A stretch of DNA of 55,304 nt from Bacillota bacterium (GTDB taxonomy: Bacteria > Bacillota > UBA994 > UBA5500). Location of the stretch: positions 1 through 55,304 of the forward strand of contig JAKOXL010000025.1 in assembly GCA_029781045.1 (NCBI GenBank). Direction: 5' to 3'. The notes beneath the pieces were generated by a model, which worked only from the letters and a program-made list of their open reading frames with translations, was not told where the DNA came from and searched no databases. Both the position numbers and the translations under genes were made by a program. Of this stretch, positions 16,897 to 20,337 are shown piece by piece (position 1 is the first letter of the stretch; each line of letters starts with the position of its first letter).

Positions 16897-18000
16897 CTAC
16901 TGTAGCCGCAACTCTATTTCATCGATAACAGCCCGAGCCGCCCAGGGCCTGCCCAACGCAGCAGCTCTTTGCCCCAGTTGAGTCAGCCGTTCCTTATCAT
17001 TCAGCAGCTGGGTCATTTTCACACCCGTATCTTCATCGGCAGACAGGCGAATTGCACAACCCTGCTCCGTCAGCCAACGGGTATTGCGGTCTTCTTGACC
17101 AGGAATCGGGGACATGATGATTATGGGTTTGCCCTGACTTAAGGCCTCGGCCGATGTCACCCCTCCCGGCTTAGTGAGCACAATATCGGCGGCTGCCATA
17201 AGCTCATTGACAAAATCAATGAAGCCATAGACGAAGAACTTGTTGCGCCAGCGTCGATTCTTCAGCTCATTGTGTAGTATTTCGTTGCGGCCGGTCACCA
17301 CCAACACTTGGCTTCCTTCGGCACAGGCATCAAAACGTTCTACCACCTGTCGGATTTCCCCTAATCCTAGGGAGCCACCCATAACCAGGACCGTGGGCAG
17401 GTTATCCAGTCGGTGCTTTGCCCGTACCAGATCGGGATCCGCCTTCTCGGAAAAGCGGGCAAGAATAGGTATGCCGGTAACAACAACCTGTGATCGCGGA
17501 ACACCCAGATCATCCATTGTTCCTAGCAACTGCTCATGGGCTATGCAATAGAGGTCTGCACCTTTATGTAGCCAATAGGCGTGCACGGTAAAATCGGTAA
17601 TCACCACAGTTAAATGCTGATGGATGCGTTGCCGTCTTTTTAGCGTACCCAACAGCCCAGCGGCAAAGGCATGGGTACAGATGATGGCGTCGGGGGAATA
17701 GTCCCGAATCACTTTAGCCAAAGCCCGTGACAGCAGCCGATAGGGCAGGTTGGCCAGGTCGCGGGCCCCCTCTCCCGCCTCGGTTTTCTCATAGAGCTTG
17801 CCATAAACGGCCGGCGAAAGCTTAAGCAGTCCCAAATACCCTTCGATCAACAGCTTATTGAGTATCGGACTAATACAACTAATCGTATCCACAATAGCCA
17901 CTCGCGCATTGGGATAACGCCGCAAAATTTCCTCCTGTAAAGCCCGCGCCACTTGATCATGGCCCGCACCCACGGATGCGGAGAATATGAGGGTATCCAT
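16897..18000 (-). CDS. MGDG synthase-like / processive diacylglycerol glycosyltransferase
   Basis: A 367-residue GT28-like enzyme. The N-terminal [15 protein letters not shown] loop and the [19 protein letters not shown] donor-binding segment are typical of monogalactosyldiacylglycerol synthases and UgtP-like enzymes, which move sugar from a UDP or GDP donor to membrane diacylglycerol. [18 protein letters not shown] is the expected acceptor-side motif. The ATG at 18000 follows GGGAG by eight bases. It sits upstream of the polyprenyl synthase; joint transcription is possible but no shared pathway is obvious. Confidence 0.87.
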
Positions 18001-18077
18001 ACAAAACACTCCCTATAAATTCCTCTAAATGGAACATACTATATATGCCATACCAAACTAAGAAGGGATTGATCACA

Positions 18078-18551
18078 TTGTCTGAGATCTTCGTCGGCAA
18101 ACCGGCTCCCGATTTCACTCTACCTGATCAGAACGGCAAGCCGGTAACTCTCAGTGATTACCGGGGAAAGCAGAATGTGGTGCTGCTCTTCTATCCGCTG
18201 GACTGGACACCGGTGTGAGCTTCCGAGTTACCAGCGTGCGAAGAACTGAGTGCCAGATTCGCTGAGCTGGATACCCAGGTTCTGGGTATTAGTGTGGATA
18301 GCAGCCCTTCCCATAAGGCTTTTGCCGAAAAATTGGGCGTCACTTTCCCCCTGTTAAGTGATATTCACCGTCACGTAAGCGCTTTATATAATGTACTCAT
18401 AAAAGATGAGGGAATTTCTGCTCGCGCAACTTTCATCGTAGATAAGGGCGGCATCATTCGCTATCAGTTGGTGACTGACCTCGATATTCGCCGCGATGTC
18501 AACGAATTCCTGCGTATCGCGGAAGCCCTGGAAAAGCAGCAGAAGGGTTAA
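18078..18551 (+). CDS. Selenocysteine-containing peroxiredoxin (in-frame UGA at residue 47)
   Basis: A 157-residue Bcp/AhpC-type thiol peroxidase. The frame from a TTG at 18078 begins [17 protein letters not shown] and reaches FYPLDWTPV, then TGA at 18216-18218, then [14 protein letters not shown], and continues to a stop at 18551. Peroxiredoxins have TPVCxxE here, so the TGA takes the place of the peroxidatic cysteine. Everything after it is intact peroxiredoxin ([29 protein letters not shown]). A hairpin starting 13 bases after the TGA fits a bacterial SECIS. A Cys at residue 54 could resolve the oxidised Sec. Sec incorporation is inferred; the selenium machinery is not in the window. Confidence 0.87.
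18231..18270 (+). promoter_or_regulatory. SECIS-like hairpin
   Basis: Downstream of the UGA three nested stems can form: CCAGC (18231) with GCTGG (18266), GCGAA (18238) with TTCGC (18258), and CTG (18246) with CAG (18254) closing the loop AGTGC. The apical loop begins 31 bases after the UGA and has G as its second base. Both features fall in the range described for bacterial SECIS elements. Confidence 0.7.
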
Positions 18552-18562
18552 GAAGGTGCGAC

Positions 18563-18615
18563 ATAATAGGTGCAAAAAAAGGCAGCCCGACGGCTGCCTA
18601 TTCTGCACCTATTAT
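18563..18615 (-). terminator. Nested bidirectional hairpin between prx and nfo
   Basis: An inner stem (GGCAGCC with GGCTGCC) lies inside a perfect 12-base outer inverted repeat (ATAATAGGTGCA with TGCACCTATTAT). On the minus strand the inner stem is followed by TTTTTTT, making a terminator for nfo. The outer arm overlaps the last codons of nfo. Confidence 0.75.
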
Positions 18616-19440
18616 TGCTTTTACGCGCGCAATGTCTTGCGCATAGTCCCGATATGTAGTAACCGGAGTCTCCAAATGCCATGCCAACCGCCGAACGAAG
18701 GGGTGGTGCAGCAGATTAGCAAAGCCCTCTTCGCCTATCTCCCCCTGCCCTATGTTAGCATGTCGATCCCGCCTACTGCCGCTAGGCATCTTACTATCAT
18801 TGAGGTGCAGCACTTTCACCGGCTCCAGACCGATGCTGGCATCCAAATCAGCAACTAACCGCTCCACCTCTTGGGCCTTGGTAAAATCATAACCGGCAGC
18901 AAAAAGGTGGCAGGAGTCGAGGCAAACCCCCACCTGCTGGGGACGACCCAAAGCATGCCAAATGGCGGCGATTTCCTCAATGCTTCCGACCTCATTCCCT
19001 TGCGTAGCCATCGTCTCCAGCAAGAGACAGACCGAACTTCCGCTCTCCTCTAGTACCTTATCCAGGAGGCGGATGATACGGTGCAGGGCATCCGTTCGCC
19101 TGTCCGAGGCACTACCAGGATGTACCACCAGATAGTCAATGCCTAGAGCCGCCATTCGCCGCAGATCATCGGCCACCACCATACTGGCAAACTCTATCAG
19201 GTTCTCCTTATCACTGGCCAAGTTAACCGTATAAGGTAGATGGCCACATACCTGGGCTATGTCAGCCTCACGAGCCGCCTTAAACCAGCGAGCTATTTCG
19301 TCATCGCCAATGGTGCGAGCCCCACCTCCACGGGGATTACGGGTAAAGAACTGAAAAGTGTTGGCTCCAATTTCTAAAGCTTGGGGCACCACTTTATCAA
19401 TGCCCTTAGTTATGGATAGAAACGCACCCAGACGTACCAT
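18598..19440 (-). CDS. nfo: Endonuclease IV (deoxyribonuclease IV)
   Basis: An AP endonuclease with a TIM barrel and three zinc ions, which cuts abasic sites in base-excision repair. The 280-residue protein shows ITKGIDKVVPQALEIGANTFQ, FTRNPRG, VCGHLPYTVNLAS, LVVHPGS, LLLETMATQGNEVG, GVCLDSCHLFAAGYDF, VLHLNDSK and DRHANIGQGEIG, which carry the metal-binding His, Glu and Asp residues. Third base-excision repair gene in the window after nth and mpg. It lies 11 bases from a conserved unknown gene and is probably cotranscribed with it. Confidence 0.95.
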   Translation of the reverse strand: MVRLGAFLSITKGIDKVVPQALEIGANTFQFFTRNPRGGGARTIGDDEIARWFKAAREADIAQVCGHLPYTVNLASDKENLIEFASMVVADDLRRMAALGIDYLVVHPGSASDRRTDALHRIIRLLDKVLEESGSSVCLLLETMATQGNEVGSIEEIAAIWHALGRPQQVGVCLDSCHLFAAGYDFTKAQEVERLVADLDASIGLEPVKVLHLNDSKMPSGSRRDRHANIGQGEIGEEGFANLLHHPFVRRLAWHLETPVTTYRDYAQDIARVKAIIGAE

Positions 19441-19451
19441 AGCTTCGTTAC

Positions 19452-19976
19452 CTAGCCCAGCAGCTGGCGAACCCGATCAGCTATGTATTCCACCAAGGGT
19501 CGGCCCCCAATGGTCACACCACCAGCGAAGTCGGGCTGCAAACGGAAGAAGTTGATGATCAGGGCATCGCCCCTTACATATGCCTCCTCCAGATGCAAGG
19601 GCGCAAAGTAGACGGTGATGGTACGGTCTTGGGCAAATTCTTGCGACAGCTGATTCGCCAGACTATCCAGATTGAGCTGCTTTATAGGCTGGGCCATCTC
19701 CGAGGTGAGTCCCAAATCCTCTAACATCCATAGGTTGTTGTTAAAGAACCTACCTTCTTTGCGGTTGGCTGGATTAATAGGCTCTCGGTTGGTGATGCCG
19801 CTAAGAATACGTCGCACCGATTCAGCAGTAAACTCCTCATCATAAACCATCTGCATCACTGGTAGCTCCGCCAAGTTGGTTAGAAACTTCTCGTTCACCT
19901 TTTCCTTTTCACTGGTCGCCTGCCAGAAATACAGCATAGCCTCGATGGCTTCCAAATTGGTCTTGAGAGTAATCAA
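19452..19976 (-). CDS. Conserved hypothetical protein (resembles the TDE2712-type family)
   Basis: A 174-residue soluble protein. The opening ITLKTNLEAIEAMLYFWQ, the middle ITNREPINPANRKEGRFFN and NLWMLEDLG, and the ending DALIINFFRLQPDF agree from memory with an uncharacterised family found in Firmicutes and spirochaetes, but I cannot verify this. No catalytic motif is obvious. It is closely followed by nfo on the same strand, so a link to DNA repair is possible but unproven. Confidence 0.7.
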   Translation of the reverse strand: MITLKTNLEAIEAMLYFWQATSEKEKVNEKFLTNLAELPVMQMVYDEEFTAESVRRILSGITNREPINPANRKEGRFFNNNLWMLEDLGLTSEMAQPIKQLNLDSLANQLSQEFAQDRTITVYFAPLHLEEAYVRGDALIINFFRLQPDFAGGVTIGGRPLVEYIADRVRQLLG

Positions 19977-20040: not shown

Positions 20041-20283
20041 CTAATTTGACTTTTCCGGCACAAATCCAGGCTTAGGCGGTCCCGAACTGGCGTGTTTTAT
20101 TTTCTCGGCGAAATAATGCAACTCCTCCAGTGTCCTCTCCAGCCATTCCACGCTAGTGGCAATCAGCTGACCATCTATTTCTTCATCCGGCACCTGCCAG
20201 GCCCCCATTAGGTTCTCCAATGTTTCCTGAACACGATAGCGGCAGGCCTTGCGGTACTGTTCCAGATTCATGTAGTCGGTCAT
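20041..20283 (-). CDS. Small hypothetical protein, 80 residues
   Basis: Not recognised. An ATG at 20283 preceded by GGGAGG starts MTDYMNLEQYRKACRYRVQE. The product is mainly helical and charged, with two predicted amphipathic helices (QYRKACRYRVQETLENLM and VEWLERTLEELHYFAEKI) and a short proline-rich C-terminus. It lies between the aldo/keto reductase terminator and the conserved unknown gene on the same strand. Confidence 0.6.
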   Translation of the reverse strand: MTDYMNLEQYRKACRYRVQETLENLMGAWQVPDEEIDGQLIATSVEWLERTLEELHYFAEKIKHASSGPPKPGFVPEKSN

Positions 20284-20337
20284 TGTAAGCAACCTCCCAA
20301 CCGAAATATCATCCATAGGTTGCTCCTAAGGTCAGGC

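Follow-up and report, generated by a model that had tools for sequence, protein, structure and literature searches.

Does the in-frame TGA in a small peroxiredoxin gene mark a broken gene, or does it encode selenocysteine (Sec) in a working one? We raise this question for a locus in a window of 55,304 nucleotides (the whole stretch of DNA analysed), in which the codon lies where the peroxidatic cysteine would be expected. Very probably, the gene at 18078-18551 is functional and encodes a small peroxiredoxin that is a selenoprotein, a reading based on the full frame, the catalytic place of the TGA, the Sec machinery of the genome, the conservation of both the TGA and the hairpin place in a second genus, and selection acting after the TGA.

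The product of the open reading frame (ORF) matches the AhpC-TSA family in a profile search (E 6.5e-44; 149.3 bits against a cut-off of 26) and contains a single TGA, at the peroxidatic residue of PLDWTPV-U. An earlier, sequence-only reading had placed this TGA at the active-site position, codon 47, and had described the frame as open beyond it without other defect; coordinates and ORF agree with the sequence on the first point, and the frame does run on for 110 codons. Its expectation that an annotation pipeline would break the gene is borne out by the standard-code ORF list, where the sole long ORF of the gene is a GTG-started 85-residue tail (18294-18551). The TTG start is plausible, since the orthologue described below has ATG at the corresponding place. 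The coordinates of all features are collected in Table 1; Arg116 is the conserved active-site arginine of peroxiredoxins.

Table 1. Features of the predicted Sec-peroxiredoxin gene and its surroundings, in window coordinates.
Feature	Position	Strand	Details
Predicted Sec-peroxiredoxin coding sequence	18078..18551	+	157 residues, TTG start, TAA stop; translated with TGA=U
In-frame TGA, codon 47, putative peroxidatic selenocysteine	18216..18218	+	Sec or Cys in 126/126 aligned proteins
Thr44 codon of PxxxTxxU motif	18207..18209	+	Thr in 117/126, Ser in 9/126 rows
Arg116 codon	18423..18425	+	Arg in 126/126 rows
Cys54 codon, candidate resolving cysteine	18237..18239	+	Cys in 2/126 rows
Purine-rich aagaaggga, likely ribosome-binding site	18060..18068	+	By inspection
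Three-part hairpin, candidate bacterial SECIS	18231..18270	+	+13 to +52; minimum free energy (MFE) fold
Hairpin lower stem	18231-18235/18266-18270	+	
Hairpin middle stem	18238-18242/18258-18262	+	
Hairpin upper stem, 3 pairs	18246-18248/18254-18256	+	
Apical loop AGUGC	18249..18253	+	Begins +31 from TGA; G second

The genome containing the gene is a draft of 2.01 Mb in 57 contigs, of which the window is C6. The sequence-only reading had made its claim depend on the presence of selA, selB, selC and selD, and all four were found: selA (E 5.9e-187) and selB (E 3.6e-116) by profile search, tRNA-Sec (77 bits; anticodon TCA by ARAGORN), and selD (E 6.2e-113), which has a TGA of its own in the N-terminal active-site loop (GUASKLG). 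The genes for selA, selB and tRNA-Sec lie at most 5 kb apart on one contig (C28). In-frame TGA codons also occur in GrdA (CFVU; E 2.7e-77) and in GrdB, where the codon precedes GTCTRC (E 8.2e-174), so that, with selD, other established selenoprotein families in this genome use UGA as Sec. On the same contig, near 130 kb (L157), genes for a GrdE-like protein, GrdA and GrdB stand in a row as glycine reductase, which would point to amino-acid fermentation. The alpha subunit of formate dehydrogenase was not found in this genome at E 0.001.

We searched 15 genomes of the class for orthologues (E 1e-25) and obtained two matches, the genome itself and G004, which belongs to another genus of the same family and supplies the sole true orthologue behind the comparison. 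The G004 protein is 80% identical to the 157-residue peroxiredoxin, has its TGA at the same codon and starts with ATG. The order of genes on either side of the locus is shared by the two genomes: aldo/keto reductase comes first, then a small protein and an AP-endonuclease-like protein; after the oppositely oriented peroxiredoxin gene follow an MGDG-synthase-like glycosyltransferase and polyprenyl synthetase. Two minus-strand genes of the window encode proteins without a Pfam match, one of 174 residues (19452-19976) that is absent from the G004 neighbourhood list, and one at 20041-20316. With synonymous sites saturated, pN/pS against G004 is 0.043 over the 44 codons before the TGA and 0.192 over the 106 codons after it, values that indicate purifying selection on the protein beyond the TGA; selection is weaker downstream than upstream, which we count against the Sec reading. 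Two same-genus genomes (86% and 94% complete) have selA and no match to the peroxiredoxin at E 1e-20, a further point against that reading, so the gene is either dispensable or was missed. G004 additionally carries a true PrxU with an in-frame TGA (L064 458-1048, contig C51; 335.9 bits against a cut-off of 270).

Downstream of the TGA, the sequence-only reading had described a hairpin from +13 to +52 with its apical loop at +31 and a G in the second loop place, and this description is correct to the base. The 43 bases at 18230-18272, a piece picked after its fold had been seen, have an MFE of -16.9 kcal/mol (z -3.2), and other cuts of the region give z +0.7 (45 bases), -1.2 (63 bases) and -1.9 (91 bases). 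Folds as stable occur at the same offset after 25 of the 1598 TGAs in the window and in 53 of 3000 random 43-mers. The G004 hairpin, likewise cut out after its fold had been seen, reaches -20.3 kcal/mol (z -3.9; z -1.9 for a 65-base cut); its loop begins at +31 or +32 according to the fold considered, and reads GUCC, or GGUCCU in a near-optimal structure. The bacterial SECIS rule as given in PMC13188914 asks for a loop of 3-9 nt, an upper stem of at least 4 pairs, a G in the first two loop places, a spacing of 16-37 nt and an MFE of at most -7.5. In our own rendering of that rule as a scanner, the hairpin agrees in loop, G, spacing and energy but fails on the upper stem, which has 3 pairs in the MFE fold where the rule has 4; the G004 orthologue passes. 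The scanner discriminates poorly: 47 of 86 Sec sites satisfy it, but so do 6 of 40 Cys sites and 54 of 250 random TGAs. A search of 17500-19500 against Rfam (E up to 10) returned no SECIS family and three unrelated matches, all below gathering. We regard the hairpin as a plausible, not a proven, SECIS element; two sequences are too few for covariation.

Relatives of the protein are widespread. Across 398 genomes of the phylum, a peroxiredoxin matched at E 1e-20 in 91, many of them with one TGA. A scan of named genomes used the patterns FYPL[DA]WTP and [FR]VG[KD][PQ]AP[DT]F, of which the peroxidatic codon is not a part; among the best 80 of 401 relatives, which were kept, the equivalent of codon 47 is TGA in 69 and Cys in 11. 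Their phyla include Bacillota, Acidobacteriota, Chloroflexota, Actinomycetota, Myxococcota, Planctomycetota and Zixiibacteriota, and the viral contigs scanned held no relative. Alignment with Cys homologues, also proposed from the sequence alone, bears the assignment out: the residue 47 column holds Sec or Cys in all 126 rows (TGA 86, Cys 40, nothing else). This set is enriched in TGA, 13 Sec rows (L056-L068) having been added for their TGA, so 86/126 is no frequency; L071-L075 were left out of alignment and tree as repeats of L027, L039, L040 and L054.

Presence of selA is associated with the Sec form of the protein. A selA gene was found in 44/44 Sec genomes tested (43 over cut-off, one a sub-cut-off fragment) versus 5/11 Cys genomes (Fisher p 1.6e-5); close relatives among these genomes are not independent. 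The search took in every one of the 11 Cys loci and, after near copies from Bacillaceae had been set aside, 44 of the 69 Sec loci; many of the genomes are drafts. Genomes of the Anaerolineae-type Cys forms (L093, L096, L102 and L122) gave no selA match, and two other Cys forms (L081 and L152) have selA in their genomes.

Several distinct peroxiredoxin groups contain a peroxidatic TGA, including PrxQ-like TxxU proteins (L054, L057, L061 and L065) and proteins with FTPVU (L060 and L066), and the tree requires 9 Sec/Cys changes. A GrdB-like gene lies downstream of the peroxiredoxin in the same orientation in 29 of the best 80 relatives, and all 29 are Sec forms, of the Bacilli and Acidobacteriota types; two more GrdB-like matches (L109 and L148) stand in another arrangement. 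At two loci (L089 6486-7214 and L133 6547-7296) the GrdB-like gene has its own in-frame TGA (GUP), and the pair is likely a two-selenoprotein operon. No GrdB-like neighbour lies beside the peroxiredoxin in our stretch or in that of G004.

Three other explanations of the TGA have to be weighed against Sec. The frame is interrupted, as it would be in a pseudogene created by a nonsense mutation in a Cys peroxiredoxin, and at the thresholds applied the gene is missing from two other genomes of the genus; decay is nevertheless very unlikely, given the same TGA in another genus, a pN/pS of 0.192 over the 106 codons past it, and a sequence whose sole defect falls on the one catalytic codon. A sequencing or assembly error at the TGA might be suspected in a draft of 57 contigs, but is hardly credible when the orthologue is too diverged to share one error (80% protein identity, saturated synonymous sites) and TGA occupies the codon in 69 of the best 80 relatives. 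The G004 gene thus stands in, in part, for the resequencing that the sequence-only reading had named as a way to refute its claim. For UGA being read as some other amino acid, by suppression or under a genetic code that assigns UGA to Trp, we found no point in favour, and the restriction of the column to a Sec codon or Cys in 126/126 rows, together with the presence of selA, selB, selD and tRNA-Sec, makes it extremely improbable.

To which class does the predicted selenoprotein belong? In an IQ-TREE phylogeny of the 126 rows, rooted at the midpoint, it pairs with the G004 protein (support 100/98) within a larger group (83 rows, of which 72 are Sec and 11 Cys) whose members are small and mostly carry a single Sec; the backbone of the tree is weakly supported (62/48). 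An AlphaFold model (mean pLDDT 96.8) has as its top Foldseek match AhpE of Mycobacterium tuberculosis (5c04_A; E 8.0e-20, TM 0.91, 43% identity), and phmmer scores chloroplast BAS1 (109.4 bits) about equal to AhpE (109.1 bits). The score against the NCBIfam PrxU equivalog NF040737 is 98.5 bits, far below its cut-off of 270, and no NCBIfam model exceeds its cut-off for the protein or for four relatives. An Ala-Phe dyad in PxAF(T/S)xxC is described as the motif of the AhpE group (PMC5302317); in our protein the dyad is absent and Asp42-Trp43 stands in its place. Because AhpE and BAS1 tie in sequence and the dyad is missing, we describe the predicted protein as AhpE-like but do not assign it to AhpE.

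The nearest known kinds are the TxxU Sec-peroxiredoxins and, by fold, AhpE of M. tuberculosis. With M. tuberculosis AhpE, a 1-Cys enzyme, it shares a similar length and the lack of a C-terminal resolving Cys, and it differs in having Sec for Cys, Asp-Trp for Ala-Phe and the extra Cys54. Typical 2-Cys peroxiredoxins (Prx1/AhpC) are approached through the BAS1 score that ties with AhpE, but their C-terminal resolving Cys segment is missing and they fall in another group of the tree. As in PrxQ/BCP proteins, a second Cys follows the peroxidatic residue in the same helix, at a spacing of seven rather than five; the PrxQ-like Cys protein of the same genome is a separate gene (L017). The AhpC-TSA fold, the PxxxTxxU motif and the UGA at the peroxidatic codon are those of TxxU Sec-peroxiredoxins, whereas the chain is shorter, lies on another branch and scores below the PrxU cut-off. 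Peroxiredoxins with TxxU were reportedly first described in Eubacterium acidaminophilum, by Soehling in 2001. They are an established selenoprotein family in the accounts given by PMC1794560, PMC1088965, PMC9312934 and PMC13188914, so the kind is already known and our gene adds a member. Searches of the open-licence literature (AhpE with selenoprotein, PrxU, a Bacillus peroxiredoxin with in-frame UGA, the motif) listed no paper on the AhpE-like Sec group.

Pro40, Thr44 and Arg116 are invariant in 32/32 aligned proteins, which from the behaviour of the family suggests the usual peroxiredoxin chemistry, carried out by selenium instead of sulfur. In the mechanism that we propose, SelB and Sec-tRNA would read the UGA, helped by the hairpin at 18231-18270, and the Sec47 selenolate, held by Pro40, Thr44 and Arg116, would attack the peroxide and become a selenenic acid. 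Its reduction would most likely fall to an external thiol system, whether glutaredoxin, thioredoxin or a small thiol. Resolution within the chain by Cys54, after local unwinding of helix 45-56, would be the less likely route.

The sequence-only reading had offered Cys54 as the resolving residue. The cysteine is indeed present, but its role is doubtful: among the 126 rows it is confined to our protein and its G004 orthologue, and many Sec relatives lack any further Cys, which makes an outside reductant likelier. A selenoprotein in which Cys54 truly resolves, through an in-chain selenenylsulfide with a seven-residue spacing, is accordingly an unlikely variant. Cys54 is the sole Cys of the protein and is kept in both members of the lineage, yet at 80% identity its retention in one orthologue says little, and in the predicted model Sec47 and Cys54 sit about two turns apart in one helix (45-56).

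Chains of 248-253 residues make up 12 of the best 80 relatives (L076, L082, L091, L093, L102, L122, L123, L134, L137, L141, L142 and L143), and all three that we scanned (L076, L093 and L123) end in a glutaredoxin domain that exceeds the Pfam cut-off. These fusions may point to a glutaredoxin-type natural reductant. Among ten proteins scanned as neighbours of other relatives there was no adjacent glutaredoxin, the matches being GrdB-like, ferritin-like and weakly thioredoxin-like. Reduction of M. tuberculosis AhpE by mycothiol or mycoredoxin, as described in PMC8945050, agrees with an outside reductant here.

Taken jointly, these observations allow a tentative history, which we put forward as possible rather than probable: the FYPL[DA]WTPV-U branch of small, AhpE-like proteins may have the selenoenzyme as its ancestral and also its usual form, its Cys forms (those of Anaerolineae, for example) may have arisen through loss of the Sec machinery, its reductant may be of glutaredoxin type, and the Cys added at +7 in this lineage may give a new in-chain selenenylsulfide. 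Annotation as a short peptide and an 85-residue fragment would hide a real antioxidant enzyme. The lack of any NCBIfam model over cut-off for our protein and four relatives suggests that a widespread Sec group is without a dedicated model, and such a model would recover these genes across several phyla. With its matched Sec and Cys forms, the group would also offer a way to ask why a peroxide-reducing enzyme keeps selenium.
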